From Undibacterium sp. KW1 (GTDB lineage Bacteria; Pseudomonadota; Gammaproteobacteria; Burkholderiales; Burkholderiaceae_D), in the NCBI RefSeq assembly GCF_009937955.1, contig NZ_AP018439.1, positions 2,976,001 through 3,040,000 on the forward strand: a DNA stretch of 64,000 bases. Direction: 5' to 3'. The first letter of the stretch is position 1; each line of letters starts with the position of its first letter. Positions 18,033 through 41,322 of this stretch are shown here, piece by piece. Position numbers and translations under genes: made by a program. Below the pieces are notes generated by a model that did not search any database, was not told the origin of the DNA, and was given only the letters and a program-made list of their open reading frames with translations.

Positions 18033-18086
18033 CGGGGTGTTTCTTGCTTTCAGTTGCCTAATATTGCCTGATCCAAATCATTCCCA
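18013..18086 (-). repeat. guaA-proximal att-like repeat
   Basis: This is the intact counterpart of 16,240-16,313. It runs from inside the guaA terminator to the last three codons of guaA, so the coding sequence is restored at the junction, as is usual for elements that insert at the end of an essential gene. Confidence 0.72.
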
Positions 18087-19670: not shown

Positions 19671-19673
19671 AAA

Positions 19674-20723
19674 TCAAATTATCATGTCAGGTTGTGCAGG
19701 CGTGGCCTGGACAACACAATTGTTTCCTGCATTTCTGGCGGAAAGCAGGGCTTTTTCTGCGTGGCTAATTAAAGTTTCTGGTTCGGCATCAGGAAAGATG
19801 TCAGTTGATGCGGTGCCAGCACTGATCGTCAAAGCTGTATCGACATCATTCATTTTTTCAGGATGCATGAGCACAGAAGCACGTATGCGCTCCCCTACTG
19901 CTGTGACCACCAGGTGGGATGCACCCGGCAATACCACCAGCAGCAAGTCAGTGCCAAAACGCCCCAGGGCGTCAAAAGGACGCACGCAAGAGCGAATACG
20001 GCTGACAGTCTTGACCAGTATCATGTCTGTGATGGCGATACCATGCAGATCACGCAAATGTTCCATCTGATCCACACTGGCTATCAGCAGGGCCAAAGGT
20101 TTCATGGCCTTGGCACAGCGCTCCATCTCCAGCTTCAATGAACGGATGATGGCAGATTTGTTCCAGGTGCCCAGCAAAGGGTCTATCAGTGAATCACGTT
20201 TGAGATTGCGGTTTTGTTTGATGACTTCGAGCTGCGTCTGGTAAAGGGCACTGAAAGCCATTTCACGCTCAACCATGGAGGCAAGATCGGCAAATGACTG
20301 TCTTTCCTCATCATCCAGGTCACGGGTTTGATAGTCGATCAGGATGACACTGCCAATTAACTGGTTGCCATGATCAAAAACGGGATGAGAAGCAAAGAAA
20401 CGTATGGATGGCGGACCTGCCACCATAGGATGCTTACCCAGATGCTCATGCAGACGCAGGTCAGGTATGACCAGGATTTCATCAACAGGTGGAACAGAAT
20501 CGCAAAACTCGGCTTCCATATTGGTAATGGAATGCACCAGATGGTCAAACCTTGGCACCAGCTTGCCAAAACTGACCAGACAGTTAGCCACCCCAAACAA
20601 CTTGATGCCAAGTCGTTCAAAGCGGCCCAGGCGCAGCTCCATCCGTTCAGAAACCATGCGCTCAAAACCCGAACTGACCGGTGTCGTTGTCGATGGGCCG
20701 GAACGATCTAGGTTCGTTGACAT
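19674..20723 (-). CDS. GAF plus degenerate GGDEF protein between guaB and guaA
   Basis: A 349-residue soluble protein. Residues 40-155 form a GAF domain (EILVIPDLRLHEH, then PSIRFFASHPVF and LIGSVILIDYQTRDL). Residues 178-335 form a GGDEF domain that has lost its catalytic signature: GTDLL at 257-261 replaces GGDEF, and the first metal aspartate is replaced by serine at S216. The product-binding I-site RxxD is retained at R248-D251 in the standard position. This combination, known from the c-di-GMP receptor PelD, predicts a c-di-GMP sensor rather than a cyclase. It lies between guaB (55 bases) and guaA (3 bases), so it is made together with the GTP-supplying enzymes. Function is inference. 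Confidence 0.85.
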   Translation of the reverse strand: MSTNLDRSGPSTTTPVSSGFERMVSERMELRLGRFERLGIKLFGVANCLVSFGKLVPRFDHLVHSITNMEAEFCDSVPPVDEILVIPDLRLHEHLGKHPMVAGPPSIRFFASHPVFDHGNQLIGSVILIDYQTRDLDDEERQSFADLASMVEREMAFSALYQTQLEVIKQNRNLKRDSLIDPLLGTWNKSAIIRSLKLEMERCAKAMKPLALLIASVDQMEHLRDLHGIAITDMILVKTVSRIRSCVRPFDALGRFGTDLLLVVLPGASHLVVTAVGERIRASVLMHPEKMNDVDTALTISAGTASTDIFPDAEPETLISHAEKALLSARNAGNNCVVQATPAQPDMII

Positions 20724-20778
20724 TCCACTCTCCAGGCATCCTCAATTCGGGTCATGCTTCTCAAGCGCATTTCAAACA

Positions 20779-22266
<1,488 letters not shown>

Positions 22267-25580: not shown

Positions 25581-26942
25581 ATGCGTGATTACCTCAACAG
25601 TCTGGACTGGCTAAAAAGCGGACTGTTCTGGCGTACCTTCCTCATGCTGGCCGTGCTTGTCACCGCCAGTATGCTGGCCTGGATGTCCAATTTTCGCACC
25701 CTGGAAACAGCACCGCGGGCTCAGCAGATGGCGGCGCAAATTGTCTCCATTGTCACTATCACGCGTGCGGCCCTGACCCACTCTGCCCCAGAGAAACGGC
25801 ATGAACTCTTGCGCGACCTGGCCAACAAAGAAGGTGTGCAGATCTACCTGCTGGAAGATACTGATCGTGTAGAAGAGCCAGAAGCCACCCCCTTCTTTCT
25901 TGAATCCCGGCCCCTGATGTTGCGCGGACTGGGGAATAACACCCGCTTTGCCAGCAAGCTCAACGGTATCAGCGGCTTCTGGATCAGCTTTGATATTGAA
26001 GAAGATCATTACTGGTTGAGATTGGAGCAAGACCGCCTGGACCCTCCTATAGGGCAGCAATTATTCAGCTGGGCTATCCTGACTCTCTTTTTGACCTTGC
26101 TGGGTGCAGCCATCATCTCCAAGCTCATTAATGACCCATTATCACGTTTGAGCAATGCAGCACGCGCTGTCGCCAAAGGCAAACAACCACCACCTCTGCC
26201 ACAAAAAGGCCCAAAAGAAATCCGCGAGACCAATGTCAGCTTCAATACCATGATGGAAGACCTGGTCAGGATAGAAACAGACCGCTCCATCATTCTGGCC
26301 GGCATTTCGCATGATTTGCGCACCCCTCTGGCACGCATGCAGCTTGAAGTTGAAATGGCCAGCCTCAGTGATGAGGCCCGGACCGGCATGCAATCCGATC
26401 TGCAGCAGATGGATGACATCATCAGCCAGTTCCTTGATTACGCCAAGCCCCTGGACAAAGTCGAATTCGAGCGCATCAACATCAGCGAAGTCATGCAGCA
26501 AATCATGGATGAGGCTTTTCGCTTTCAAAACCTGCGCCTGCGCACCGCGATCAAACCAAATATCTATGTCAATGGCAATCTGACTGAACTCAGGCGTCTG
26601 TTCAACAACATCGTGGAAAATGCCTGTCGCTACGGAAAAACCCCAGGCTCCCCCGTCATCACACTCGACGTGCAATGCTCACGCAAAAACAAGGACAGAA
26701 AGCTGGGCATACAAATCAGCTTCCGTGATCATGGGCTGGGTGTGGCAGAACAAGACCTGGTCCGATTGCTGCGACCCTTCACCCGTGGTGATGCTTCGCG
26801 CAGCCAGGCCAATGGCTCTGGTCTGGGCCTAGCCATTGTCGATCGCATCATCAAAAGCCATGGCGGCAAATTGCGCATCTACAATCATGCTGAAGGCGGT
26901 TTTGTCATCGTGATAGCACTACAGGAAGCAAAAGAAGCCTGA
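25581..26942 (+). CDS. envZ: EnvZ-like sensor histidine kinase
   Basis: A 453-residue inner-membrane kinase. The N-terminal helix (about residues 14-35) is followed by a periplasmic domain of about 125 residues, a second helix (about 163-183), a HAMP linker, and a HisKA box ISHDLRTPLARM with the phosphorylated histidine H244. The ATP-binding part shows NNIVENACRYG, DHGLGV and GSGLGLAIVDRI. It follows the response regulator by 46 bases and almost surely phosphorylates it. EnvZ similarity predicts a response to osmolarity, though the signal cannot be read from the sequence. Confidence 0.88.
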   Translation: MRDYLNSLDWLKSGLFWRTFLMLAVLVTASMLAWMSNFRTLETAPRAQQMAAQIVSIVTITRAALTHSAPEKRHELLRDLANKEGVQIYLLEDTDRVEEPEATPFFLESRPLMLRGLGNNTRFASKLNGISGFWISFDIEEDHYWLRLEQDRLDPPIGQQLFSWAILTLFLTLLGAAIISKLINDPLSRLSNAARAVAKGKQPPPLPQKGPKEIRETNVSFNTMMEDLVRIETDRSIILAGISHDLRTPLARMQLEVEMASLSDEARTGMQSDLQQMDDIISQFLDYAKPLDKVEFERINISEVMQQIMDEAFRFQNLRLRTAIKPNIYVNGNLTELRRLFNNIVENACRYGKTPGSPVITLDVQCSRKNKDRKLGIQISFRDHGLGVAEQDLVRLLRPFTRGDASRSQANGSGLGLAIVDRIIKSHGGKLRIYNHAEGGFVIVIALQEAKEA

Positions 26943-27096
26943 TCCCCTACCGACTTCACGGATGGCTTTGATCCGACAACCAGACCGTAATACCGAAACA
27001 AATAGCCTGACGCACATCAATAAAACCCTCTGTTACAGAAAAGTTTAAATGTTACAATTGCCGCAATTTTTAGGGCTCTTAAAGACCAATAAACTC

Positions 27097-28038
27097 ATGC
27101 GTAACCAAATTTCAGCCCTGCTCGTCACCTGCATTGCAATCAGCTCACCTTCCTTTGCAGAAACCTATCCTCCTTCAGCCTATAAAGACGGCGCTGTAAA
27201 GTGCATGCAAGTACGCAGCTATGATTGCGCAGAAAAAAACTGGAACCAATATATCAAAATGCGTCCTACCGACGCAAAAGCCATCGCCAGCCTGGCAATC
27301 ACCTATCATTGGGCAGACAAACCGGAGGCGAGTATCGTCCAGGCTGAAAAAGCCATCAGTATGGGAGAAGGCGCCTACGACTTGTTCGCTGCTTATTCAG
27401 AAAGCCTTGGAAAAACCGGTCGTATAGAAGAAGCCATAGACTGGGGCTATAAAACACTGGCAATAGTTCCCAGTCTGGTGAACGTGCGTGGCGACGTTGC
27501 GAAATATCTCGTCATGCGCAAGCGCGAATTTGAAGCTCTGGCCCTGCTCGCCTCATTCGATTCGTCACTGGAAGCACAGGGGCACGGCCATTATTTTGAC
27601 GGCCAGCGCATCGCCATTGAATCGTCATTGGAACGCCAAGGGCAAACTGCCACCACAACAGTGAAAAGCATGCGCCTGCCAAAGACCAAAGAGCATTTTT
27701 ACGCTCCCGTAAAACTTGGCAACAACAAAATAGAAGCATTCATGGTCGACACCGGTGCCACCAAAACCACGCTCAGCGACGATATGCTTAACGACTCCAA
27801 AGTGTCCTACAAAGTGGTAAAACCTCTCGTTAATATGCAGACTGCGGATGGAAGGATCATACAAGCCCGCGTCGTCACGATCGACAATATCAAAGTTGGC
27901 CCATTTGAATTACGCAAAGTCACGGCCGCAGTTTGCAAAACCTGCCAGCCACTGCTGGGCCAGGGATCGCTGTCGCAATTCAATATGGCGTCTTCCAAGA
28001 CGCAGGGAGTAGAATTTTTGACTTTGGAATTGCGTTAA
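27097..28038 (+). CDS. Exported TPR plus retropepsin-like aspartic protease
   Basis: A 313-residue protein when started at the ATG at 27,097, which gives a signal peptide ending SPSFAE (about residue 22). The ORF also opens at 27,049, but a TACAAT box at 27,053-27,058 fits a promoter -10 element and supports the later start. Residues 30-185 look like TPR-type helical repeats. Residues 190-313 form a clan-AA retropepsin-like domain with the active-site motif DTGA at D218-A221 and flap-like AVVCK and LLGQGSL regions. Bacterial relatives are periplasmic and probably work as dimers. It converges on the giant coiled-coil gene with a shared terminator. Confidence 0.8.
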   Translation: MRNQISALLVTCIAISSPSFAETYPPSAYKDGAVKCMQVRSYDCAEKNWNQYIKMRPTDAKAIASLAITYHWADKPEASIVQAEKAISMGEGAYDLFAAYSESLGKTGRIEEAIDWGYKTLAIVPSLVNVRGDVAKYLVMRKREFEALALLASFDSSLEAQGHGHYFDGQRIAIESSLERQGQTATTTVKSMRLPKTKEHFYAPVKLGNNKIEAFMVDTGATKTTLSDDMLNDSKVSYKVVKPLVNMQTADGRIIQARVVTIDNIKVGPFELRKVTAAVCKTCQPLLGQGSLSQFNMASSKTQGVEFLTLELR

Positions 28039-28090
28039 TTGCGTTAATTACCTTCGCACATTAATCGCCCACTACCATGTAATAGTTAAA

Positions 28091-28118
28091 AAGCCGCGCA
28101 AATTGCGCGGCTTTTTTG
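28091..28118. terminator. Bidirectional rho-independent terminator
   Basis: The stem AAGCCGCGCA/TGCGCGGCTT has a short AAT loop. It is preceded by A's and followed by six T's, between the convergent retropepsin gene and the giant coiled-coil gene. Confidence 0.92.
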
Positions 28119-28136
28119 TCCATACTATACTTCTGA

Positions 28137-31100
28137 TTAGCGACTACCCGCCAAAGCCAGTTGAGTGGTCGTGACCTTACTACCTTCGTCCGCCTTTGAG
28201 GGCGCCTGATCAGCAGGAGCAGCCAACTCATAAGTCATGTGCAAGCCACCATTCACTTTCTCGACTGGCGCAAGTTGTTCCAACACGGCCGTTTTTTGCG
28301 TCACTGCACGGGAAGCTGTCGCGCCGCTCAACGCAAAATTACTGAAACCGGCAAAACCTGCAATACCAGCACATAACAACAAACCGGCAATAACAGATGG
28401 GCGCAGACGGAAGCGTTTTTGTACTTCGTCTTGCTGAGCTGTTGCATCATAAGCCACAGTGATCGGTGCTGCCGCCAGCATTTGCTCAACCTGTTGGCGC
28501 CACTCTTCTGATGTTTGCCTGTTACTGAGCAGCTTGCTGATCAGGGCTTGCGCCAGTTGTTCTGCTTCCTGATGCTCAGCTTCCAGTGTTTGTTTTGCCA
28601 TTTCTGCTTCGGCTTGCAACTCCTCTTTTTGTTGCTGGATCTGCAGTCTGTTTTGTTCCTGCCATTCCCTGGCGGATGCCAAAGCCTGTTCAATAAATTC
28701 CTGAGCAGCAGCTTGTTGCTCAGCACGTTGTTGCAACATGGCTTGCAGTTCTGCTTCGTCGGCAGCTTGTTTTTCCAGTTGCGCCTGCAAGGCTTTTTCA
28801 TCGGCGATACGTTTTGCTGCCGCATCTGCTAATGCCTGTTGCTTTTGCTGAGTTTGAACTTCAACCGCAATCAATTGCTGCTGCAGCTCTTCTTGCAATG
28901 CCGCTTCCAATGACAATTGTTCTTCGAGTTTGGCTTGCAGCACACCTTGCTCTTCCATGCGTTTGGCGATAGCAGCATTAAGTGCCTGCTCTTTTTCCAG
29001 CCTTTGTGCTTCAGCCGCTTCCAGTTTGGATGCCAGCTCAGCCTGTAATACTGCCTCTACTGCCAGGGCTTGCTCAGCTTGCTTGAGCAAGTCACTCTCT
29101 TTCTCTGTACGTGCTGCAAAGCTTGCGGCCAAAGCCTGTTCTTTTTCCAGTCTCTGGGCTTCAGCAGTATGCAGTTTCGATGTGAATTCAGCTTTCAATT
29201 CTGCTTCCACAGCCAATGCCTGCTCAGCGTGGGCCAGCAATGTGTTTTCTTCTTCAACACGCGCGGCTATAGCTGCAGCCAGTGCTTGTTCTTTTTCCAG
29301 CCTTTGCGCCTCCAGTGTTTCAAGCTGGCTTTCTTCCAATAATTTGGCGCGCAGTTCTGGCAGTGCTTGTTCGTCGGCAGCGATTTGCAGGGCCGTGGCT
29401 TCTGCAATTTCACGCTCCAGTGCCAGTTTTTCTTGTTCCAGTGCGTTGGCGATCAACAGTTGTTCTGCGCGTTGCTTGCTTTGTTCTGCCAATTCTGACT
29501 CCAGACGTACGCGTTCTTCTGTCGCCGTAATGACCAGACGTTCAGCTTCCATTTTTTCTTCTATGAGGCGCAAGGCATCCTGCGTCATTTGCAGGCTATC
29601 CATCTCCATCTGTCTTTGCTGCTGTATGGTGATGATTTCGCGCTGTGCCAGCTCTGCACGTTGTTGTTCTGCTTGCTGCAAGATGAACAATTCTTCAGCA
29701 CGGGTCTGCGCTGCTTCAGTGGCTTGTTGCTCGGATATTGCCAGTGCATTTGCCAGTTCAGTTGCTTCTTTTTCGCTTTGCAACCTTGCCTGGATGGCGA
29801 CATTGGCATCTTGCTCTGCATTTGCGCGAATTTCGCACAGGCTCAGGTATTCTTGCTCTGCCAGTTTGCGTTGTTCTGCTTCTTGTGCTGCTTTTTGTTC
29901 AACCGCCAATTTTTGCTGCACCAAACTCAGTGCTTCAAGTTCAGTGGCAGCGCGCTGGTTTTCAGTCATGGTCAGGGCTTCAGCTTCGCGCAATCTGGTT
30001 TCTGTCGCTTCTGCTGCCAGACGCTGTGCCTCTGCGTGTTCAGCAGAGCGGGCCAGCAATGCTTGTTCAGCATTCGCCAGGCGCAATGTGGCTTCCAGAG
30101 CTTCTTGCTCCTTATAGGCACGTTCGCTTGCGGCTTCGGCAAATTCACGTTCTATCGCCAGTTTGGCTTGCAGGGTGATTTCTGCTGATTCTTCCTGTTC
30201 CAGTTTGGTTTTCAGCTCAGCACTGATTTGCTGTTCGACAGCGATTTTTTCCTGGCTGGCACGGCTCAATTCCAGCAACAAGGCTGTTTTTTCTTCGAGT
30301 ACGACGGCTGCCTGGAGTTTGATCAATGCTTCCTGAGCCGCTTGTGCCAACCATTGTTTTTCAGTTTCATTGAATTTTTCTGCCAGTTCGCGTGCTTGGG
30401 CTTCAGCAGCCTGGCGCTCAGAGATCAATTTGTGTTGCGCTTGTTCTGCCACCAGACGCGCTTCTGCTTCTGCAGTAGCTGCCAGCTCCGCCTGTTGTTT
30501 GGCTGTCAGGCTGTCCAGTACCGCTTGTTCAGCAGCGATACGTTGTTGTTGTGCAGCCAACAATTCCTGCTCTTGTTGCAGACGTTGTGCGAGCAGCTCA
30601 GCCATGAGACTTTGTGCATCAGCATGAGCAGCCAGTTCCTGGAACAGGGCTTTTTCTGATGCCAGGGTTGCTTCGGTTGCGGCGCGGATGATTTTTTCTG
30701 CACGTGCGCGAGCTTCAGCAAACTGTTGTGCCTCAGCTTCGCTGGACAAACGACTTTGCACGTCTGCGTGCGCTTCTTGTTCTGCCTGCAGTCTGGCTGC
30801 TGTGGTGTCCAGCAAGGCCTGATCATCTGCCAGGCGTTGCTGCAAGACAGCGTCAAGTTCAGCAACTTTTTTATTCTTTTCAATGACCAGTTCGTGGGCT
30901 TTATGCTGGCTGGCAGCATACGCTTGCGCCTGGATTTGCAGGGCTTGTTCGGCTTGCAATTTGGCCGCTGTCAATTCATTGGCTTCTTGCTCTGCCCTGG
31001 CCCTGACTGCTGCAGCCTGTGCATGTTGCTGTTCTGCTTTTGCTCTGACAGCCGCTGCTTCTGCGGCAATTTTTTCTGCGGCCAGTTTTTCTGTTGCAGC

Positions 31101-33857
31101 TTTTGCTTCCAATTCTGCAGCATCAGCTTTTTGTTTTTCCAGCCTGGCTTGCTCCTCAAGAGCCATCGCTGCCTGCTGCTGCGATTTGGCTTTTTCCTGT
31201 TCAAGTTGCGTCAATTGAGTAGCAGCTTTCACCCTTGCTGCAGCGGCAGTTGCCGCTTGTTGTTCAGCCTTGGCTTGTTGATTGTTTTGCTCCAGCAGTT
31301 TTTTTTCTTCTGCGACCTTGCTTTCCATCGCAGCACGCAAAGCTTGCTCAGATTGCAGACGGGCCAGGTGCTGGTCACGTTGTTCCTGCTCTACTACTGC
31401 CTTGGCTTGCAATTCTGCTGTCAGGCGTTTTTCTGCTTCCAGTTTTTGCTGGACCAGGTTCAGGGCTTTTTGCTCGGACTCTGCACGCAAGCGCAAAGTC
31501 TTGCCGAGTTCTTCAGCTTCAACAGCCTTGGTTTGTGCCAGTACCGCAGATTGTTTTTGCAGATCTGCGTGTTCCTGCATTTTTTGCAGGCGTACTTGTT
31601 CTGCTGCGATCATGGCCTGACGTACTGCACGGGCTTCTGCCTCTTGTTGCTGGCGTGCGTTCAGGACATTGGCATGCTCACGATCAGCATGAGCGCGGGC
31701 AATGACTTGCTCGGCGGCTGTTTTTTCAGCTTCCAGTTTTTCCTTGGCTGCTCTTGCCGCCTGCTTTTCTGCTTCCAGATGCATTTGCTCTGCGCGTGCC
31801 ATTTCTGTGGCTTGATGGCTAATCAGCAAAGCGACCTTGGCTGCCTTGCATTGAGCATCTTTTTGCAGTTCGGTTTGCTCAAGAGTAGTTTTTTCTGCAT
31901 CAAGTGTGGCTTCCAGCGCCAGTCTTTCTTCGCGTTCAGCTTGTTCCCTGGCGGCGGCAATTGCCTTGGACTCCTCTTCTGCGCGCAGTCTGGCTTCAGC
32001 TTCTTGCTGGGCGGCTTGTTCAAGTTGCAGCTTTTCCTGTGTTGCCTTCAGCACTTGTTGCACTGCATTGGCACGGCGACGTTCTGCCTGTAGTTTTTCT
32101 TCCTGAAGTTCCATCGCTTTCACCTCATCATTAGTGCGTTGCTGTTGGACGCGCAGAAGTTCGCTGGCATCTTGATTTTTTCTGGCAGCGGCTGCGGCCA
32201 TTTTTTGCTGCAATTCCACCTGCTCCATGGTTTTTTCCAGGCTCAGTTTTTCTGCCACACATTCTGATTCCTGAGCGATGCGGCGTGCATGTTCTGCCTG
32301 CTCTTGCATGCGCAAGAGTTCTGCGTGAGATTGCTCTGCCTTGGCCAGGGCTTCCGCTTCTTCTGTCATTTTGCGTTCGGCGGCCAATTTTTCCTGCAAG
32401 GCGGCTGCAGCTTTTTGTTCTGCTGCAGCGCGCATTTTTTCAGCCATCATCAATTCCTGGGCTTTTTTGGCTTTATCTGCGGCTGCCAGGTTGGCGCGTT
32501 TCAGCAATTCAGCCTGGAAGGCACTGGCACTCAGGGCTTGTTGTTCTGAATCGGCTTTTTCACGAGCATCTTGTACCGCCTGTTTTTCGATCTCCAGGCG
32601 CTCTTTGGCCAGCTTGGCAGCCCGTTGCTCTTCAGCGACACGCTGGCGGGCATTGTCTGCAGCTTCCTGCTCAGCCAGACGACGTTGGCGGGCTTCTTCT
32701 GCCAATGCGGCTTCAGCAGCTTGTCTTGCCCGCGCTTGCAGGTCAGCTTGCTGTTCGTTTTCTATGCGCGTCATGGCAGTTGATTGCAGTTCGCGCTCTG
32801 CGCGTATGCGTGACTCGGTCACCATGCGGATTTTGTCCTCTGCTTCACGACGGGCTTGGGCAGTCGCGGCAGCAATCTTTTCTGCCTGTTCGCGTTTGTT
32901 GGCAGCAATGCGCAAGTCTTCTTCCGACTGCATGCGCAACTGTATGGCTTCTGCTGCTTTTCTTTCAGACTCCATTCTGGCCTGGGCAATTGCCTCTTGA
33001 CCTTGCTCCAAGGCAACGCGCGCCAATGCATCTTCACGGGCGCGCAATTCCACTGGGGCGCGGTTGATGGCATATTCCAGCGCCATGGCTTCTGCCTGGT
33101 CGCGTTCTTTGCTGATTTGCAGGGATTCGCTGCGGACTTTGGCCAGCATTTCTGCAGTTTCACGGGCTTCGCGGTCGCGTTTTTCACGTTCGCGTGCCAG
33201 TTCAGTAATACGGGCATCAGCGCGGGCGCGTTCTTCTGCCTGTTGGCGTGCAGATTGGGATGCGGCAAAGCGTTCTGCAGCCCAGTTGCGGGCATTGGCG
33301 GTTTGCGTTGCGAGTTTTTCTGCTTCTGCATGGGCTTGAGAAGCCAGTTCTGACTCAGCTTTGAACTGATGCTCGGCTTTTTCTATGGCTTGTTGTTCGA
33401 GTTTGGCACGCTGTTCTGATTGTTCACGGGCCCGTGACTCTATCAGTGCGCGTTCTTGCAGATTCCTGGTTTCTTCGGCGGTGGCAGCTATTCTGGCTTC
33501 ACTGGCGGCGCGTGACTGGCGTTCTGCCATCAGTTTTGCCTGCGCGCCGGCGATAGCTTCTTGTTCCAATGCCAGTTTGCGCTGAGCCAGTTCGGCGGAT
33601 TCTGCTTCTGCCTGCGCCCTGGTTTCTGCCAGCGCCCTGGCTTGGGATTCTGCTTTCAGCCTTGTTTCCGCTGCTACGGTGGCCCTGGCTTCTGCCTCTA
33701 CCCGTGCGATGGCTTCACGAATACCTTTCACATCGATGCGGGTATTGGACTCAATTGCCTCTTCTGGTGGCAAATAATTGTCCTTGCGGTCGCCATGGCG
33801 ATCGAGGGAGTAATCTCCCAGAGATAATTTATTTAACAACGCCTGATTGCTGTCCAT
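28137..33857 (-). CDS. Giant C-tail-anchored coiled-coil protein
   Basis: A 1,906-residue protein I cannot assign to a family. I place the start at the ATG at 33,857, which has AGGAG seven bases upstream; the frame also opens at 33,908 without a ribosome binding site. After about 50 ordinary residues (LLNKLSLGDYSLDRHGDRK), about 1,740 residues are Ala/Glu/Gln/Lys/Arg-rich with only two or three prolines, as in a continuous coiled coil. A single hydrophobic helix (about 1,821-1,843, VIAGLLLCAGIAGFAGFSNF) and a 60-residue tail end the protein. The coiled part should be cytoplasmic and the tail periplasmic. It contains four exact 50-residue repeats. It could be a scaffold, filament or spacer; TolA-like proteins are much shorter and anchored at the other end. 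Confidence 0.85.
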   Translation of the reverse strand: MDSNQALLNKLSLGDYSLDRHGDRKDNYLPPEEAIESNTRIDVKGIREAIARVEAEARATVAAETRLKAESQARALAETRAQAEAESAELAQRKLALEQEAIAGAQAKLMAERQSRAASEARIAATAEETRNLQERALIESRAREQSEQRAKLEQQAIEKAEHQFKAESELASQAHAEAEKLATQTANARNWAAERFAASQSARQQAEERARADARITELAREREKRDREARETAEMLAKVRSESLQISKERDQAEAMALEYAINRAPVELRAREDALARVALEQGQEAIAQARMESERKAAEAIQLRMQSEEDLRIAANKREQAEKIAAATAQARREAEDKIRMVTESRIRAERELQSTAMTRIENEQQADLQARARQAAEAALAEEARQRRLAEQEAADNARQRVAEEQRAAKLAKERLEIEKQAVQDAREKADSEQQALSASAFQAELLKRANLAAADKAKKAQELMMAEKMRAAAEQKAAAALQEKLAAERKMTEEAEALAKAEQSHAELLRMQEQAEHARRIAQESECVAEKLSLEKTMEQVELQQKMAAAAARKNQDASELLRVQQQRTNDEVKAMELQEEKLQAERRRANAVQQVLKATQEKLQLEQAAQQEAEARLRAEEESKAIAAAREQAEREERLALEATLDAEKTTLEQTELQKDAQCKAAKVALLISHQATEMARAEQMHLEAEKQAARAAKEKLEAEKTAAEQVIARAHADREHANVLNARQQQEAEARAVRQAMIAAEQVRLQKMQEHADLQKQSAVLAQTKAVEAEELGKTLRLRAESEQKALNLVQQKLEAEKRLTAELQAKAVVEQEQRDQHLARLQSEQALRAAMESKVAEEKKLLEQNNQQAKAEQQAATAAAARVKAATQLTQLEQEKAKSQQQAAMALEEQARLEKQKADAAELEAKAATEKLAAEKIAAEAAAVRAKAEQQHAQAAAVRARAEQEANELTAAKLQAEQALQIQAQAYAASQHKAHELVIEKNKKVAELDAVLQQRLADDQALLDTTAARLQAEQEAHADVQSRLSSEAEAQQFAEARARAEKIIRAATEATLASEKALFQELAAHADAQSLMAELLAQRLQQEQELLAAQQQRIAAEQAVLDSLTAKQQAELAATAEAEARLVAEQAQHKLISERQAAEAQARELAEKFNETEKQWLAQAAQEALIKLQAAVVLEEKTALLLELSRASQEKIAVEQQISAELKTKLEQEESAEITLQAKLAIEREFAEAASERAYKEQEALEATLRLANAEQALLARSAEHAEAQRLAAEATETRLREAEALTMTENQRAATELEALSLVQQKLAVEQKAAQEAEQRKLAEQEYLSLCEIRANAEQDANVAIQARLQSEKEATELANALAISEQQATEAAQTRAEELFILQQAEQQRAELAQREIITIQQQRQMEMDSLQMTQDALRLIEEKMEAERLVITATEERVRLESELAEQSKQRAEQLLIANALEQEKLALEREIAEATALQIAADEQALPELRAKLLEESQLETLEAQRLEKEQALAAAIAARVEEENTLLAHAEQALAVEAELKAEFTSKLHTAEAQRLEKEQALAASFAARTEKESDLLKQAEQALAVEAVLQAELASKLEAAEAQRLEKEQALNAAIAKRMEEQGVLQAKLEEQLSLEAALQEELQQQLIAVEVQTQQKQQALADAAAKRIADEKALQAQLEKQAADEAELQAMLQQRAEQQAAAQEFIEQALASAREWQEQNRLQIQQQKEELQAEAEMAKQTLEAEHQEAEQLAQALISKLLSNRQTSEEWRQQVEQMLAAAPITVAYDATAQQDEVQKRFRLRPSVIAGLLLCAGIAGFAGFSNFALSGATASRAVTQKTAVLEQLAPVEKVNGGLHMTYELAAPADQAPSKADEGSKVTTTQLALAGSR
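28716..29315 (-). repeat. Tandem 150-bp repeat, four units, inside the coiled-coil gene
   Basis: The word for AQRLEKEQAL recurs at exact 150-base steps (landmarks at 29,284, 29,134, 28,984 and, decayed, 28,834). Each unit codes for 50 residues of the type EAQRLEKEQAL, then EQALAVEAEL, then ASKL. The first three are well conserved and the fourth is diverged. Recent in-frame duplication explains the pattern. Confidence 0.85.
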
Positions 33858-34062
33858 TTCTGCACTCCTGATCTGATAGTCGTTCACCGTCATCGCGGGC
33901 CCTGCCATGCCGGAACTTCTTATACTGGATTATCAATCAAGAAAAATTTGACGATGGCTGGAGCAGAAGTGGAAAAACACCTCAATTCCTGATTTATCCG
34001 TTTCCCTTAATGCTGGCTGGGACGTAAAATAGCGGTCAACTCAACATTGCCGGAGAATTACC

Positions 34063-34695
34063 TTGAACGAACTCGTTACCGAAATCAGACACCCACTGGT
34101 GCAACACAAACTGACGCTGATGCGCAGCAAAGACACGCCGACGGATAATTTCCGCCGTCTGTTGCGTGAAATCAGCCAGATGCTGGCGTATGAAGTCACC
34201 CGTGACCTGCCTATTGAACTGGTCAAGATCGAAACGCCGATTACCACCATTGATGCACCAACCATCAGTGGCAAGAAGTTGTGCGTGATCTCAGTCTTGC
34301 GCGCTGGCAATGGTATTTTGGATGGCATGCTGGATTTGCTGCCAAATGCGCGCGTAGGCCATATCGGTCTGTACCGTGACCCAGAAACACTGGAACCGGT
34401 CGAGTATTACTTCAAAGTGCCAGAAGATATCGCAGACCGCCTGGTGATCGTGGTTGACCCCATGCTGGCAACTGGCAACTCAGCCGCTGCCGCCATTTCC
34501 CGCCTGAAACTGCGTGGCGCGACGACGATCAAGTTCGTGTGCCTGCTGGCTGCCCCGGAAGGTATCAAGGTCATGAATGCGGCCCATCCTGATGTACCTA
34601 TCGTGACTGCTTCAATTGATGACCATCTCAATGAACATGGTTATATCGTGCCTGGCCTGGGCGATGCCGGGGACCGTTTGTTTGGTACAAAATAA
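34063..34695 (+). CDS. upp: Uracil phosphoribosyltransferase
   Basis: A 210-residue enzyme making UMP from uracil and PRPP in pyrimidine salvage. The start is TTG with GGAG eight bases upstream, giving the normal N-terminus [20 protein letters not shown]. The PRPP-binding loop [14 protein letters not shown] and the C-terminal uracil-binding [18 protein letters not shown] are intact. It is divergent from the giant coiled-coil gene, with 205 bases between them. Confidence 0.96.
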
Positions 34696-34738
34696 TCGTT
34701 TTATATCAATCGCTTATAGTTTTTGAAGAGTTTCACTG

Positions 34739-35905
34739 ATGACGACTACTGCCCGCTTCGTACCTGAGTCTAAATTGCCCGAAGTGGGCACCACCATCTT
34801 TTCAGTGATGTCTGCCCTGGCAGCAGAGAAAAAAGCGGTCAATCTTGGTCAGGGCTTCCCTGACTTTAGCTGCGACCCTGCTCTGCCTGCCCTGGTAGCA
34901 CAGGCCATGACGGATAATTACAATCAATATCCGCCCATGCCAGGCATGCCGCAGTTGCGCGAGCAAATAGCCACCAAGATCAAGAACATCTATGGTCATG
35001 CTTATGATGTGAATACTGAAATCACCGTCACTGCTGGCGCGACCCAGGGTATTTTGACGATCTTGCTGGCCTGCGTACATGCAGGTGATGAAGTCATTGT
35101 CATAGAACCTGCGTATGACAGCTATGTATCCAGTATCAAGCTAGCAGGCGGTGTGCCGGTGTTTGTCAGTATGGAATTGGGGACAAATGGCTATGCCATC
35201 CCCTGGGAAAAAGTAAAAGCCAGCATCACTGACAAGACCCGTTTGCTGATGCTGAATTCACCGCATAACCCTACCGGGTCGGTACTAAGTGTGGATGATA
35301 TCGCCGCTTTGAGCGATATCGTGCGTGATACCAGGGTATTGATTGCATCCGACGAGGTATATGAGCACATGGTGTTTGATGGTCAGCGCCACGAATCGCT
35401 GTCGCGCTACCCTGAGCTGGCAGAGCGCAGCTTTATCATTTCCAGCTTTGGTAAGACGTATCATGTGACAGGCTGGAAAGTTGGCTATGTAACGGCACCG
35501 GCAGCACTGATGGCAGAGTTCCGCAAGGTCCATCAATACAATGTCTTTACCGTCAATACACCTATGCAGGTGGGATTGGCGCAGTATATGAGCAAGCCTG
35601 CCCCGTATCTGGAGCTATCGGACTTTTATCAAGAGAAACGTGACCTGTTCAGGGCTGGCCTGGCCAATTCACGCTTGCGCTTGCTGCCATGTGCTGGCAC
35701 TTATTTCCAGTCTGTTGATTATTCAGCAGTTTCCGACATGACTGAACTGGAATTTGCCCGCTGGCTGACGACTGAGATTGGTGTGGCAGCCATCCCGGTT
35801 TCTGCTTTTTATCAGCAAGGCAAGGAATCTGGCATCGTGCGTTTTTGCTTTGCCAAGCAGGATACTACCCTGCAAGACGCCTTGCAGCGCCTGCAAAGCA
35901 TTTAA
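34739..35905 (+). CDS. PLP aminotransferase, methionine/YbdL type
   Basis: A 388-residue class I aminotransferase. Visible features are GQGFPDFSC near residue 37, the cofactor-binding NSPHNPTGS, and the PLP lysine K239 in SSFGKTYHVTGWK. The sequence is closest in style to the YbdL/methionine aminotransferase group, which prefers methionine, histidine and phenylalanine and may serve methionine salvage. It follows upp by 43 bases but there is no functional reason to link the two. It ends just before a small hairpin shared with the convergent DUF3999 gene. Confidence 0.88.
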   Translation: MTTTARFVPESKLPEVGTTIFSVMSALAAEKKAVNLGQGFPDFSCDPALPALVAQAMTDNYNQYPPMPGMPQLREQIATKIKNIYGHAYDVNTEITVTAGATQGILTILLACVHAGDEVIVIEPAYDSYVSSIKLAGGVPVFVSMELGTNGYAIPWEKVKASITDKTRLLMLNSPHNPTGSVLSVDDIAALSDIVRDTRVLIASDEVYEHMVFDGQRHESLSRYPELAERSFIISSFGKTYHVTGWKVGYVTAPAALMAEFRKVHQYNVFTVNTPMQVGLAQYMSKPAPYLELSDFYQEKRDLFRAGLANSRLRLLPCAGTYFQSVDYSAVSDMTELEFARWLTTEIGVAAIPVSAFYQQGKESGIVRFCFAKQDTTLQDALQRLQSI

Positions 35906-35906
35906 T

Positions 35907-35926
35907 ACCTGAGCAAATACTCAGGT
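35907..35926. terminator. Hairpin between convergent genes
   Basis: ACCTGAG and CTCAGGT form a seven-base stem with loop CAAATA, followed by CTTT on the plus strand. It overlaps the last codons of the convergent DUF3999 gene. It is a plausible but weak terminator for the aminotransferase. Confidence 0.5.
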
Positions 35927-37384
35927 CTTTGCCTTATCTTCTGACATATTCTTCAGCAGGGACCATACCATCCCGCCCAATAATAATAAACCAACACCTA
36001 ATGCCGCCCATAACCAGGGTTTGTGCTCTTTGGCGGGTGTCTTCTCAGCGACTGGTTTGACCACAGGCTGAGGTGCGACATAGTCGGCAATTTCCACACT
36101 GGCGATATCGGCCTGCACTGGCTTACTCAAATCCATTTTGGGAATGAGCGTTGTCAAAGGTATTGCAGCCCCCTCTTTGTTCTCCATTCCCCATTCGAGT
36201 TGGTAAGGCGGTTTGCCGCGCGCCAGAAAAACCAGCCTGCGCGGTAAGCTGGCGATCTGTATCTCAGGCAGGGTTTTGCGCAACTTGCTGAATGGGCTAT
36301 CGGTTCGCAAGCGCAAAGTCTTATAACTGGCACCATCCAAGAGCAAATCAGGTGACTTCACTTCACCATTCTGCAGATTGATTTTATAAACCATGCTGTC
36401 ATTCAACCAGACTTGTTGATCTACTACCTGCACTTCAGCATTACGCTTCTGATTCCTTAAGACATGCAGAGGATATAGCGGACTATGTCTGTGATGATAA
36501 GAGGACACCGGCGCAGTTGTCGTCGTCACCTGCGCCAGCACTGTGATATGTAACAGGGTGTTAGGCTCGCTCACCAGCAAACGCAGGCTGTCTATGGGCG
36601 TGTTGTCCGGGATGGAATAATCACAATAATTTGCACCACAAGCCCTCACCGGAATTGGCTTACTCCATTGCAAAATCGGTGGTGTATAGACTTCTTGCTG
36701 GCTGTCTATGATAACGCTGTCCAGCCAGGGTGCATCTGCAGGATTATTCCAGCGCAGGCGCAAATACTGCGCACTGACATGGTGTAGCCTGATGCCAAGA
36801 TTCTGCAACATGGAACCCTGATGACGCAATTGCACCAATTGTTCGCTACCCAGCGATTGCCAGTTTTTCAGGTCATCACTGCTTTCCAGCGTGAAGCCAA
36901 ACATGCCATCTACCTGTTCAGCTATACCGAACCTGGCTTGCAATAACTTGCCCTTGATCTTGCTGACATCAATAATCCAGGCAGGCACAGGATTTTGCCT
37001 GGTGATTTTCACTTGCGACAAGGCGCTTAGTGAGCCATCTGCATTTTGCCGGAAGCTGCTGAAGCTGCTGCTTTGTATGTCTTTCAAAGGAAAGGCGCTG
37101 ACTGTTTTGCTCTCAAGCTTGGCACTCGCCGTTTCTACGTCTGCCCAGGCAAACGACAAGAGATCACCATCAGCATTGCGCACACGTACATCATGCAGAT
37201 CGGGATGCAGGCTGCCAGGGTAAATACTGGTTGGTATATCCAGTTGAAAATACGGCCCCACTCCCGTGCTGGTGATGACAGCGTGCTTTAGCTGCGGAGT
37301 AATCGCCTGTGCTGCAACTACAGCTGAAGCTATCGCACAGGCAGCCAGCAATGACAATTTCATTTTCAGCTTGCTTATACTCAT
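35921..37384 (-). CDS. DUF3999 exported membrane-anchored protein
   Basis: A 487-residue DUF3999 protein. A signal peptide (residues 1-27, LLAACAIASAVVAAQA) is followed by a large beta-rich extracytoplasmic part with F5/8-type phrases such as SVIIDSQQEVYTPPILQWSK and ASYKTLRLRTDSPFSKL. A C-terminal transmembrane helix (about residues 455-477, WLWAALGVGLLLLGGMVWSL) precedes a short charged tail. Its ATG overlaps the stop of the DUF2339 gene by four bases. The two families are usually found as a pair. Function is unknown; an envelope role is likely. Confidence 0.85.
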   Translation of the reverse strand: MSISKLKMKLSLLAACAIASAVVAAQAITPQLKHAVITSTGVGPYFQLDIPTSIYPGSLHPDLHDVRVRNADGDLLSFAWADVETASAKLESKTVSAFPLKDIQSSSFSSFRQNADGSLSALSQVKITRQNPVPAWIIDVSKIKGKLLQARFGIAEQVDGMFGFTLESSDDLKNWQSLGSEQLVQLRHQGSMLQNLGIRLHHVSAQYLRLRWNNPADAPWLDSVIIDSQQEVYTPPILQWSKPIPVRACGANYCDYSIPDNTPIDSLRLLVSEPNTLLHITVLAQVTTTTAPVSSYHHRHSPLYPLHVLRNQKRNAEVQVVDQQVWLNDSMVYKINLQNGEVKSPDLLLDGASYKTLRLRTDSPFSKLRKTLPEIQIASLPRRLVFLARGKPPYQLEWGMENKEGAAIPLTTLIPKMDLSKPVQADIASVEIADYVAPQPVVKPVAEKTPAKEHKPWLWAALGVGLLLLGGMVWSLLKNMSEDKAKT

Positions 37385-40300
37385 GACGCCTTCTCCTGGT
37401 CTTCTGGTGTCTCGTCATCCGTGGATGCTGCAGCTGCCTGCATTTCTTTTGGCTTGACAGGTACATGTGCAAAGTAGCCAACCACCAGCAGCAATATCCC
37501 AACGCCAATGAAAGAGACAATACGGTATAAGCCACCACGGTCTGCCAGTTCTATCAGGAACAGTTTCACTACCACGACGCCCAGCAAGGCAGCGCCGGCT
37601 ATCCAGATGCTGCGTGACATGCGGCGGTTACCAAACAACATGACAGACACGCCGCAAATTGCCCAGGTAATGGAAACGGCAGCCTGACTCAGGCGCGAAG
37701 CAAACAAGGCATCTGCATCCCAAGGCACGCCGGCAAAATGGTGGCAACTACGCAAGACTATGCCCGTCAACAACGCCAGGGCTGTAGCGGCTACCAATGC
37801 TGTCGCGGCATGCTTGGTGTCTGTTTTGAGTGCCGCCATAGGTAAAGCGCGCCACCAGTGCAATAAGGACGCCAACACCAGCCATTGCCCCAATTCCAAC
37901 GGATTCAGTAAAGGCAGATAAGGCAAGGGGCTGGCATCGCCCGCGCTGAAGGCATTGGTCAACCAGCACCACGCCAGCAAATACAGGGCAACGGGCGCAC
38001 ATGCCTGCTCTATATAGGCTTTACGGTAAGAATTAAGCGGCCACCTGACTGCCAGCGGTTTGGCACCAATGAACCAGAAGACCAACGCAGGCACCAGCAC
38101 CCAACCCAGTAATGGCCAGCTTGACCAAGTATCAGCCAGTGGCGCAAGGCGTGCCTGACCTTCGCGGGCTGCCAATAACAGGAAGAACCAGAATCCGGCG
38201 ATATGCGTCAGACTCAAGAGTGGCGAAGAAGCAGCCATCCAGTTTTGCTGCTTCTTCAGTAGCTGCAAATGCCAGGCCAGTGCGAGGGGCCAGGCCAGCC
38301 AGCCCAGGTTTGCAGATGGCAAATAAGACCCATCCGCGCCGACCACGCCTATCAAACCAGCAAAAATCAGCAAAGGCAAAGTAACGATGGTGGCAAAACC
38401 CATTTGAGGCCATTGACGCCAGCCTGCCAGTGCCGCCATCAGGGCTGAACTGACCAGACCTATCACGATAGCGACGGTCGAAGAATAATTGCGGTGATCT
38501 GTGCGCACCAGGGATTCCAGACTTTCAGGGAACCAGGCACTCAACCACCATGCCAGCCCCCAGACAACTGGCAAACCAAGCGCCAGCTTGCTGTTGCACC
38601 AGGGATTGAGCCAAACAGATGGCAATTTTTGCCCTGCAGCATTGATCTCATCCGGTTTTGCAGCATGACCAAATCCACTTAGTTCCAGCAGCACGGCACG
38701 CATTCTGGCAGTTTCAGCCCGGATCAGATCAGCACTGAGCCATGCTGACACAGCCAGCGACAAAGGCACCAAAAAGCCTAGATGCGCAAATGCCGTGCCC
38801 TGGTATTTGCCAGGCTCCACCAGACACAAACCAGCAGCAATGACTTGCAAAGCAGCAGAGAAACCTGCCAGCGCACCATGCGACATGCGCAAACCTACCC
38901 ACAACAAGAGACAGGCCGTTAATGGCCAGATCAATGATGCCTGCGTCAGGTTGATGGCAAACAGCATGGCCAGATGCAACAGTGCACTACCACTGACGAT
39001 GGCAACCTGGTTCCAGATTGACCAGGCTGGCGGCAAGGATTTCGCCTGTGCAGCCCGCTTGGCCGCCACCATGGAGCGCCCTGCACTGAACAATATGCTT
39101 CCAGCAATGATGAGAGCTGCCAAGCCACCTTTCCAGCCATCTTCCAGCGCAGCATTACCATTGACGGCAACATGCAGGGTCAACATGAAAGAAGCCAGCG
39201 CGGCAGCCTGCAAAGTGGCAGAGATATGTTCAAAAACCTTCAGCGCATAACGACGGGCAATGGCCGATACCAGCAAGGCCACGACTGCCATTGCCGCTGC
39301 TGCAAATTGCGGGGCAAGCAACATCCAGGGCAACAAGGCCAGTGAAGCAACGCCTAGCCACGGCAATGCGGCATTTGGCATGGCTTCCCAGCTTGCAATA
39401 TTCTCTGGCTTAGCTTTTCTATGCAGATTCCAAACCACAAAGCAGCTAATTGCCAGCAATACCGGGCCCAGCAAACCACCCTGCAACAATGGCCCAGTTG
39501 CCTCGGGATTGATATAGATACCATGCAAGAGCTTGTACGCAGCTCCTACCATGACGACATAGGCAAAACCGCGCGCATAAGGACGCTGCTGGCGTATGCC
39601 CAGCCAGTACATGCCTGCGCCCTCAATGGCCCAGGCAGCACCTGTCCATGCGCCTTCCAATCCCAATGGTATCGCCAGCGTGGCAAAGATGGCAGCCACG
39701 ATGACATAAGCCTCTGCCAGCAGAGCCAATCCCTGCCTGGCTCTGGAAAACACAAACCTGGCCAGCAACAGGTAAAAGAAGCCAACAGCCAATGCAGAAA
39801 AAGCAGCGCCAAACTCGGTATGTTTGACCAGCATGTATTGCATGCCAAAGGCGGTGATGGGATTGCCAAACACCAGCGCGCTATCAACCCGCCCTACCCG
39901 CTTCAGGGTATCCAAAGGACCTTCCTGCACTTCCGCTTCTTTCAGGGTGCGGCGGGCAAACAGCAAGCCTATCAGGGCAAACAGGACGAAGAAAAAAATC
40001 AGAAAAGGCTGGACTATGCCGTACTGGCTATCGGTATAACTCCGCTCAGCCCAGCCCAATGCCAGGGTAAAAGTACCAACAAAACCGATCAGGTTCAGCA
40101 CACGCCACGCATTGAACCAGGCGACCACGAAGATACCTATATCCAGCACGGCCATGTATGTGAACAAACCGAGCGGACGGTTTTCACCGGTGGAAATCAA
40201 AACAGGGGTGGCAAAACCTTCAATTGCGGCAACAATGGCCAGCACAGGGGCATTTTGCAAGACCGCCAATATGGCACTGAGAACAGACACCAGAAACAGG

Positions 40301-41322
40301 AAGCCAAAGCCAACATCAGGAGAGATCAGCGCATGCAATTTCATTGCCGACAGTGCGGTCAGGTAAAACACCCCTATCGCCATGCCTTGCAATATCAAGG
40401 CATAGTCGCGGCGCTTGCTGCGCAAGAACCAGCCAAGTGCCAGCAAGACCACGCCAGACAGAGCCACACCTGCGTAACGCAGTTCCACTGGCACCGTGAC
40501 CCGCTCTGCGGTATAGCGCAGCAAAAATGCCAGGCCCAGAAACAAGATCAGGACACCGACTTTGACCAGTGCATTGCCACCAAAAATCAGTTTCGCCAGC
40601 GGCGCAGGCAAGCTTTCTCTCAACGTTTTTGGAGGCGGTGGTGGTGGGCGTTTGGCAACCGGCGGTTTTACGATGGCGGGACTTACTATTGGCGATTCAA
40701 TTGCTGCAGCTTCTACAGTTGCCAAGGGCTCTGTAACTTGAGCCACTGCCATTGGAGTGACTTGCTCTGTAACGACCGCCGGAATTTCTCTGGCAAGAAT
40801 CGCTTCTTCCAAAGGCTGCATATCCAGGTCCAGCGCTGGTGGCTGCGCATTCTCTTGCGCGCCAGCAGTAACAGCGTCAGCCTGTGATCCAAATGCCGTT
40901 GTCAGCGGCACAGCTACGCTAGTGCTGGCGTCGGCTGCTTTTGCAGCAGCAAGAGCAACCTGGGGCTCTGCCATTGCTTTTTCTTCTGCAGCCGGCTGGC
41001 TTACCGGTTCTGATTGTGCTGCGGCATCCTTGATGATCAGGCCACCGGCTTTGAGCTCGGCCATTTCACGCTCCAGCGTTTGCAGCCGGTGTTCAAGCGT
41101 GAAAATTTTCTGGCGCATCTCTGCCATTGCATCGACAGGTTTGCTTTGCGCAGGCTGGTTTATTGGTTTATTCGCCACCGGCTTGGTATTGGTATTAGTC
41201 TTGCGCGAACTGGCGATCAGATATCCAACAAAGCCGCCGGTCAAAGCAAAAAAGAACATGGCAGAACCAGAACCGGTCGCCACGCCCAAAATAAAGCCTA
41301 TGATTGCGCCCACAAACCACAT
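37381..41322 (-). CDS. DUF2339 large polytopic membrane protein
   Basis: A 1,313-residue protein of the DUF2339 family. It has an N-terminal glycine-rich membrane segment (residues 1-35), a short coiled coil EMRQKIFTLEHRLQTLEREM, an Ala/Pro/Glu-rich linker to about residue 230 and then more than 25 hydrophobic helices. The helices begin LAKLIFGGNALVKVGVLILF, the typical family entry. AGGAAA precedes the start. It is coupled to the DUF3999 gene downstream. Family members have no known biochemical activity; the size and fold suggest a membrane complex for envelope material. Polytopic topology is clear, function is not. Confidence 0.87.
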   Translation of the reverse strand: MWFVGAIIGFILGVATGSGSAMFFFALTGGFVGYLIASSRKTNTNTKPVANKPINQPAQSKPVDAMAEMRQKIFTLEHRLQTLEREMAELKAGGLIIKDAAAQSEPVSQPAAEEKAMAEPQVALAAAKAADASTSVAVPLTTAFGSQADAVTAGAQENAQPPALDLDMQPLEEAILAREIPAVVTEQVTPMAVAQVTEPLATVEAAAIESPIVSPAIVKPPVAKRPPPPPPKTLRESLPAPLAKLIFGGNALVKVGVLILFLGLAFLLRYTAERVTVPVELRYAGVALSGVVLLALGWFLRSKRRDYALILQGMAIGVFYLTALSAMKLHALISPDVGFGFLFLVSVLSAILAVLQNAPVLAIVAAIEGFATPVLISTGENRPLGLFTYMAVLDIGIFVVAWFNAWRVLNLIGFVGTFTLALGWAERSYTDSQYGIVQPFLIFFFVLFALIGLLFARRTLKEAEVQEGPLDTLKRVGRVDSALVFGNPITAFGMQYMLVKHTEFGAAFSALAVGFFYLLLARFVFSRARQGLALLAEAYVIVAAIFATLAIPLGLEGAWTGAAWAIEGAGMYWLGIRQQRPYARGFAYVVMVGAAYKLLHGIYINPEATGPLLQGGLLGPVLLAISCFVVWNLHRKAKPENIASWEAMPNAALPWLGVASLALLPWMLLAPQFAAAAMAVVALLVSAIARRYALKVFEHISATLQAAALASFMLTLHVAVNGNAALEDGWKGGLAALIIAGSILFSAGRSMVAAKRAAQAKSLPPAWSIWNQVAIVSGSALLHLAMLFAINLTQASLIWPLTACLLLWVGLRMSHGALAGFSAALQVIAAGLCLVEPGKYQGTAFAHLGFLVPLSLAVSAWLSADLIRAETARMRAVLLELSGFGHAAKPDEINAAGQKLPSVWLNPWCNSKLALGLPVVWGLAWWLSAWFPESLESLVRTDHRNYSSTVAIVIGLVSSALMAALAGWRQWPQMGFATIVTLPLLIFAGLIGVVGADGSYLPSANLGWLAWPLALAWHLQLLKKQQNWMAASSPLLSLTHIAGFWFFLLLAAREGQARLAPLADTWSSWPLLGWVLVPALVFWFIGAKPLAVRWPLNSYRKAYIEQACAPVALYLLAWCWLTNAFSAGDASPLPYLPLLNPLELGQWLVLASLLHWWRALPMAALKTDTKHAATALVAATALALLTGIVLRSCHHFAGVPWDADALFASRLSQAAVSITWAICGVSVMLFGNRRMSRSIWIAGAALLGVVVVKLFLIELADRGGLYRIVSFIGVGILLLVVGYFAHVPVKPKEMQAAAASTDDETPEDQEKAS

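Follow-up and report, generated by a model that had tools for sequence, protein, structure and literature searches.

What a bacterium does with a protein that is nearly all rod is the question raised by one gene in a 64,000-nucleotide stretch of the Undibacterium sp. KW1 genome (the window, to which all positions refer). An earlier note on this DNA had described a giant open reading frame of about 1,900 residues at 28137..33857, and that description holds. The rod gene is one uninterrupted frame on the minus strand, its longest reading (28137-33908) encoding 1,923 aa. The start at 33857 is preferred over that at 33908 because an AGGAG Shine-Dalgarno (SD) sequence (33865..33869, minus strand) lies 7 nt 5ʹ of the ATG at 33857, is absent before the earlier in-frame ATGs, and has an SD-like counterpart at the equivalent start of 24 of the 26 full-length Undibacterium genes, the window counted (the exceptions are L048 and L049). 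Read from this start, which the orthologs share, the coding sequence (28137..33857, minus strand) specifies a protein of 1,906 aa, 211 kDa and pI 5.0. Directly 3ʹ of the stop lies a terminator-like GC-rich hairpin, GCCGCGCA-ATT-TGCGCGGC, followed by five T (28088..28111, minus strand), which was read by eye and is missing from the consensus scan output. The gene is solitary: upp diverges from it upstream, and an aspartyl-protease-domain gene converges on it from downstream. An Rfam scan of window positions 26000-36000 gave no match. Many antisense ORFs of up to 455 aa lie opposite the rod gene (28515-33871, plus strand) and seem to be a side effect of its Ala/Glu/Gln-rich codons.

Two other arrangements were seen in the window. 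Adjacent DUF3999 and DUF2339 (1,313 aa) genes at 35921-41322 (minus strand) overlap by four bases and are operon-like. At 18078-22239 (minus strand), a GAF-GGDEF gene of the diguanylate cyclase type sits between guaB-type IMP dehydrogenase and guaA-type GMP synthase genes on one strand; its product is possibly a c-di-GMP maker within a GTP-supply gene group.

The rod protein looks like a new sequence family; the earlier note had known of no described bacterial family with such a layout. Searches of Pfam (E up to 1), NCBIfam and PHROGs returned no family for the window protein, and Pfam returned none for its relatives L106, L113 and L114. Among PDB chains, phmmer found no match at E up to 0.1, a test that is weak for low-complexity coils. 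No paper on the rod protein was found in open-access titles and abstracts, a body of literature outside which most subscription papers lie, and a search for Undibacterium cell-size data gave no fitting paper. As a kind of thing, the protein is a long structural coiled coil, and other kinds are already known.

AlphaFold2 predictions, made as monomers, covered residues 1-400 (17 rows, mean pLDDT 81) and 1697-1906 (23 rows, mean pLDDT 73); all features that follow are on the minus strand. The head (residues 1-42; 33732..33857) consists of an MxxNQ-type peptide and an acidic linker and is predicted to be disordered. The rod opens with the most conserved peptide of the protein (residues 40-63; 33669..33740), in which I46, I50, R52, V53, E54 and A59 are invariant in 19 family members. 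Helix A (residues 43-243; 33129..33731) is followed by a hinge region (residues 244-268; 33054..33128) made up of a predicted helix break at 244-252 and the conserved P268, with helix resuming after the break as far as residue 399. Rod B (residues 269-1796; 28470..33053) carries a 14-residue repeat in a single register and one proline, P1500; helix was predicted at its two ends only, which are the parts modeled. In the C-terminal piece, helix runs to about residue 1796 and is followed by a linker, a transmembrane (TM) helix and a disordered tail. A pre-membrane Trp motif (residues 1785-1798; 28464..28505), with W1786 invariant in 23 aligned members, precedes the TM helix, which hydropathy and AlphaFold2 place at residues of about 1820-1840 (28338..28400). 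The 66-residue tail (residues 1841-1906; 28140..28337), predicted to be periplasmic from the topology, holds the motif LHMTYEL (family LxMSYxL; residues 1872-1878; 28224..28244).

When extended, rod residues 40-1796 would measure about 261 nm by computation, in keeping with the earlier estimate of more than 250 nm. The idea of one continuous helix with nearly 1,750 proline-free residues has to be given up: P268 and P1500 lie within the rod, and its longest proline-free stretch is 1,231 residues. Structure prediction, proposed earlier as a check, returned helices at both rod ends together with the break at 244-252 (two end pieces, monomers). Given this break and the conservation of P268, the rod, as modeled, is long with at least one conserved hinge and is not one unbroken helix. 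A single proline within residues 201-330, aligned with P268, occurs in all 26 full-length Undibacterium proteins, and 19 of 24 anchored proteins from other genera also have a single proline in that interval. In these 19, it lies 222 residues past the motif Ile (the window value) in 13 and 226 residues past it in six. Proline is absent from that interval in L101, L107, L110, L111 and L128, as well as in all 15 anchor-less proteins compared.

The protein has a single strongly hydrophobic segment, at about 1821-1839, with KRFRLR before it. Since this basic stretch is on the rod side of the membrane helix, the topology is probably N-in/C-out. The single C-terminal membrane helix of the earlier note thus stands as a prediction, as does its periplasmic tail, which is 66 rather than 60 residues long. 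TolA-like proteins have an N-terminal TM helix and a periplasmic rod; that identity was rejected on the C-terminal position of the sole strongly hydrophobic segment.

From the 3.5-residue periodicity of the rod, we infer that its chains pair as coiled coils. In the window protein, residues 14 positions apart are identical at a rate of 0.22 (0.13 expected), hydropathy peaks at 3.50 residues with a power of 18.1 (at most 5.6 across 20 shuffles), and charge repeats at 7.01 residues with a power of 35.5. Over residues 61-1790, 14 residues (two heptads) was the best of five model periods, on scores uncorrected for parameter number, with a single phase jump near residue 173. Skip residues, suggested by lags of 22, 50 and 78, were rejected because the phase model needs that one jump only. 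Ala predominates at the hydrophobic positions of the 14-mer. The hydropathy peak exceeds the protein's own shuffles in every one of 26 Undibacterium proteins, in 33 of 39 proteins belonging to other genera of the family, and in 3 of 12 that are more distant.

The profile search for relatives that the earlier note had called for uncovered a wide family whose members range from about 720 to 2,000 aa. When named genomes were scanned with the head alignment, 29 of 34 stretches were confirmed, and these belong to Undibacterium and to MAGs labelled Burkholderiales, Burkholderiaceae or Oxalobacteraceae. Within Undibacterium, the head model matches 39 of 43 genomes and 34 of the 35 good ones; in the 35th (G022), a contig end cuts the rod gene. 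The gene is therefore present in all 35 good genomes, with one contig-end cut and one broken frame. Among the 39 head-matched genomes, 34 have whole-length frames, four have frames that reach contig ends (G008, G020, G025 and G029), and one (G014) has a broken frame. Frequent frameshifts or clear membership of a known family would have spoken against the earlier proposal; apart from the four at contig ends, the frames are whole with this one break, and no profile matched. The G014 frame (L191, rod gene from about 1842, plus strand) lies in a complete single-contig genome and breaks near its end, at 1,476 aa, which may reflect a sequencing error or a genuine loss.

The family sample has head matches (E ≤0.01) in 176 of 294 genomes, which represent 24 of 44 genera, a count that includes two weak matches, G095 and G186 (E above 0.003), and treats as headless G150 and G241, which carry the C-terminal part. 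Among the matches listed, there is one per genome. The rod gene thins out across the order: a broader model matches 36 of 399 genomes at order level (nine belong to the same family, counting the own genome) and, at class level, 3 of 369, own genome included. Order relatives outside the family match less strongly, and four of them (L166, L170, L171 and L172) score only 22-40 bits with filters off and are tentative members. Protein database searches with the full-length sequence and the C-terminal part gave no match, the full-length miss saying little, as only the top word-sharing candidates were scored. The N-terminal part of a relative, scored in the same way against top word-sharing candidates, found one unnamed 857-aa protein. 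A plasmid search with the N-terminal 115 residues of L106 found no copies.

Rod length differs between genera, and some genera have a typical length. Frame lengths by genus were compiled in 115 rows from the 124 matches listed outside Undibacterium (150 matching genomes), leaving out nine rows with frames of 97-359 aa; some rows may sit at contig ends. Among the matches listed, lengths are 820-856 aa in 17 genomes of genus g30, 1,249-1,281 in ten of g47 and 1,331-1,352 in four of g66, with looser ranges in g48 (1,044 to 1,744), g55 (1,001 to 1,162) and g43 (777 to 1,004). The parts conserved across genera are the first 400-500 residues, the pre-membrane Trp motif and an LxMSYxL-like tail motif. 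Over the first 400 residues, an alignment of 17 rows, three of them anchor-less proteins, has 41 invariant columns, and ungapped matches to the window extend to residue 520 or beyond in several genera. In the C-terminal alignment, the tail motif takes the form [LMF]-x-[MLIFV]-[ST]-[YFV]-x-[LI] in 23 of 23 rows, and the rest of the tail aligns poorly; L101 and L111, outside this alignment, depart from the motif.

Within Undibacterium, rod length is near-constant, imperfectly so. Window residues 141-1540 (29238..33437, minus strand) were compared with orthologs as 14 segments of 100 residues each, with shifts of up to 60 residues each way. Zero shift fits best in 343 of 350 segments from 25 Undibacterium orthologs and in 133 of 148 segments from eleven further Undibacterium loci, or 476 of 498 when pooled. 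The 22 non-zero segments comprise four of G026, in which a 243-residue insertion at about residue 1068 shifts four later segments, all 14 of G003, whose rod has no gap-free alignment with that of the window, and four weak ones elsewhere. In the Undibacterium alignment, whose most divergent members are about 40% identical, length changes cluster past residue 1545. In this length-variable part (residues 1546-1700; 28758..29222, minus strand), 118-122 aa are absent from 20 of 25 aligned relatives; the subgroup of the window has about 120 extra residues near the end compared with most other species. The other gaps are a 27-residue deletion and gaps of 10-15 residues ahead of residue 131 in five rows, and a few small ones elsewhere. 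Heptad-exact length differences were considered and rejected, as the spacing between the N-terminal and Trp motifs is not single-valued modulo 7 (another Trp was caught in some rows, the window included).

The residues of the rod are conserved as well as its length. Across five close species, dN/dS over the whole gene is 0.04-0.06; residues 131-1545 give 0.03-0.04, and residues 1781-1906 give 0.07-0.19. Neighbor genes give 0 to 0.115 in seven nearby comparisons, and the rod gene gives 0.10 against the more distant G004. Because these ratios are low, the rod is, on codon comparison, under purifying selection on its residues, beyond the periodic pattern alone.

Membrane anchoring is probably ancestral to the family but is not universal. 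Of the proteins at 39 family loci outside Undibacterium, 24 finish with a TM helix, and 15 (L112-L124, L133 and L137; 719-1,077 aa) have none at that end. The 15 come from genera g28, g30, g36, g43 and g64 and form one clade (support 100/100), and a hydrophobic segment is present at the C-terminus of two proteins from outside the family, L162 (mean hydropathy 1.33) and L164 (1.39); for both reasons, a single loss of the anchor would be the simplest reading. The tree behind it is midpoint-rooted, and L162 and L164 are long branches whose joining was flagged by the tree tool. A separate anchor protein was sought in g28, g30, g36, g43 and g64 genomes with the C-terminal model, and no match was better than E 1.3e-5. 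Six weak hits of that model, three of them from anchor-less genera, are proteins that we take to be FliL-like. A C-terminal peptide, [TA]REV[LI]xR[FL], is common to 12 of the 15 anchor-less proteins (counted by eye) and may replace the membrane anchor. The earlier picture of a membrane-hung rod accordingly fits the window protein and the 24 other anchored loci, as predicted, and fails for one clade.

The gene neighborhood is not constant. In Undibacterium, the rod gene has upp, RisSA and smpB as neighbors; at 28 loci, upp adjoins it in 19 and an aminotransferase gene takes that place in six, the remaining three being short contigs. Nine window neighbors were sought near the rod gene in other genera of the family, and none was found. 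Two same-strand genes lie 3ʹ of the rod gene at 12 of 39 loci outside Undibacterium (L106, L102, L103, L105, L108, L125, L127, L130, L131, L132, L135 and L136; genera g47, g48, g52 and g55), and one of the pair at two more. At L106, they encode a TPR-NTF2 protein and a YkuD-NTF2 (Csd6-like) protein. The neighborhood was rejected as a functional clue, this following gene pair being widespread without the rod gene.

The strongest facts about the protein are its near-constant length, its conserved rod residues and its two conserved ends. They are best accommodated by a membrane-anchored structural rod acting as a fixed-length scaffold or tether, a reading to which we give a probability of roughly 0.45. 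Two or more chains would pair into a long coiled coil, fixed in the inner membrane by the C-terminal helix and extending up to about 0.26 µm into the cytoplasm. The LxMSYxL tail peptide would dock on a periplasmic envelope partner, and the conserved N-terminal 400-500 residues, with the hinge among them, would self-assemble or bind a cytoplasmic partner, leaving the distal rod as a spacer of genus-dependent length. Since five genera have anchor-less members, membrane tethering would not be needed by all. The near-constant length points to a length-dependent job, and the conserved residues along the rod suggest lateral contacts rather than a pure spacer.

By analogy with HMW2 of Mycoplasma pneumoniae, these two demands can be combined in one role. 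HMW2 is a giant rod of similar size, 1,818 aa with 1,257 in predicted coiled coil, and a coiled-coil ruler of the attachment organelle: aligned rods set organelle length, and altering rod segments demonstrated the length-setting role (PMC8191905). A long coiled coil of about 1,250 residues or more, as in that ruler, is predicted here from the 3.5 periodicity over about 1,600 residues. HMW2 differs in forming an attachment-organelle core in a wall-less bacterium, and the word "transmembrane" is absent from the text of the paper (PMC8191905); the likeness drawn here is one of description. In a survey of 22 proteomes, the longest coiled coils among prokaryotes were those of SMC, MukB and SbcC (PMC1322226), and SMC arms are described as functioning at certain lengths only (PMC5344682). 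These proteins have ATPase heads, whereas the Pfam scan of the rod protein (E up to 1) found neither an ABC ATPase head nor any other family.

Closest in layout are the tail-anchored golgins. Their part past the TM helix is very short, and the rod protein departs from them there, with 66 residues and a conserved motif. Giantin, golgin-84 and CASP are described as long coiled coils that reach into the cytoplasm from a C-terminal TM anchor (PMC4707255), an arrangement also predicted for the rod protein (TM 1820-1840, basic side toward the rod). Golgins are eukaryotic Golgi proteins with small-GTPase binding and frequent short coil breaks (PMC4707255), and no homology is claimed. A narrower form of the scaffold reading, which we hold as speculative and rather unlikely, would make the protein a molecular ruler on the Gram-negative inner membrane, setting a distance of roughly 0.1-0.26 µm, with genus-specific length, between an envelope site marked by LxMSYxL and a structure in the cytoplasm that the N-terminal rod would hold.

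The alternative that survives best, possible though on balance improbable, is a cytoskeletal filament in which rods lie side by side in bundles or sheets, in the manner of crescentin, FilP or HMW2, pinned by the TM helix and shaping or stiffening the cell. Crescentin, FilP and Scy (intermediate filament [IF]-like) are likewise cytoplasmic coiled-coil rods of bacteria. They are shorter than the rod protein and are not known to have a C-terminal TM helix, and phmmer against the PDB (E up to 0.1, a weak test) found no sequence relation to a solved IF-like member. Conservation of rod residues beyond the periodicity is what such packing would call for, the strong 7.01-residue charge repeat could drive it, and the anchor-less clade retains the N-terminal rod. 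A link to cell shape comes from the YkuD-NTF2 gene 3ʹ of the rod gene in L106, since two proteins with such domains, H. pylori Csd6 and C. jejuni Pgp2, are reported to have a role in cell shape (PMC4599014, PMC8038945). That link is weak because the gene occurs, at E below 1e-30, in 10 of 16 genomes of the order outside the family, none of them head-matched, and because in the window's genome the YkuD-NTF2 gene is about 73 kb from the rod gene, the distance at which two NTF2 (Cds6_C) domains were located.

An organizer of the cell pole or division site, tied to flagella or motility, is less probable still; here the tail would mark an envelope site and the rod would gather polar proteins. PodJ and TipN, the polar organizers of Caulobacter, are large coiled-coil proteins with few TM helices, and PodJ shares the layout, with its N-terminus in the cytoplasm and a single TM helix leading to a periplasmic C-terminus. 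Their rods are shorter, and PodJ has folded repeats and a peptidoglycan-binding part, whereas no domain was found in the rod protein. In the family sample, 175 of 176 rod-bearing genomes have flagellin, compared with 92 of the 118 in which the head model had no match (Fisher p 1.4e-10; genomes not independent), and all six flagellin-less genera are without a head match (one-sided p 0.0055 by genus; genera not independent). The sole rod-bearing genome without flagellin, G111, is an assembly 89% complete. The comparison matched two tables by hand, with seven flagellin-less genomes deduced from numbering gaps and flagellin as the single trait, and shared lineage alone could produce the association. 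Against such a role, 92 genomes carry flagellin without a head match, and no flagellar gene is among the scanned window neighbors of the rod gene.

It is very unlikely that the chain is instead a single amphipathic helix, or a partly disordered Ala/Glu/Gln-rich polymer serving as a cushion or stress protein of no fixed length. The composition (23% Ala, 16% Glu, 12% Gln), the mostly Ala hydrophobic positions of the 14-mer, the lack of a solved relative in the PDB sequence search and a hydropathy peak within shuffles in 15 of 77 family members tested are all compatible with it; over some 1,600 residues the window protein repeats at 3.50 residues rather than 3.6 or 3.67, and near-constant length and low dN/dS likewise argue against it. 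A neutral low-complexity ORF opposite something else, which the long antisense frames might suggest, is refuted by the in-frame dN/dS of 0.04-0.06, the conserved SD sequence and head matches in 39 of 43 Undibacterium genomes.

The general view is that bacteria have few long coiled coils. Among the bacteria it covered, the survey of 22 proteomes predicted none with a coiled-coil domain longer than 400 residues, discontinuous ones such as SMC excluded, using another program whose numbers are not directly comparable to those given here (PMC1322226), yet a family of mostly-rod proteins is common in one bacterial family. In Undibacterium, this rod is under strong selection and near-constant in length, and the family is unnamed in the libraries searched. 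If the ruler form of the scaffold reading were true, the protein would be a bacterial counterpart of tail-anchored golgins in layout and of HMW2 in logic. The family makes it testable how a bacterium bridges or measures distances within its cell, and the natural loss of the anchor offers a ready comparison.
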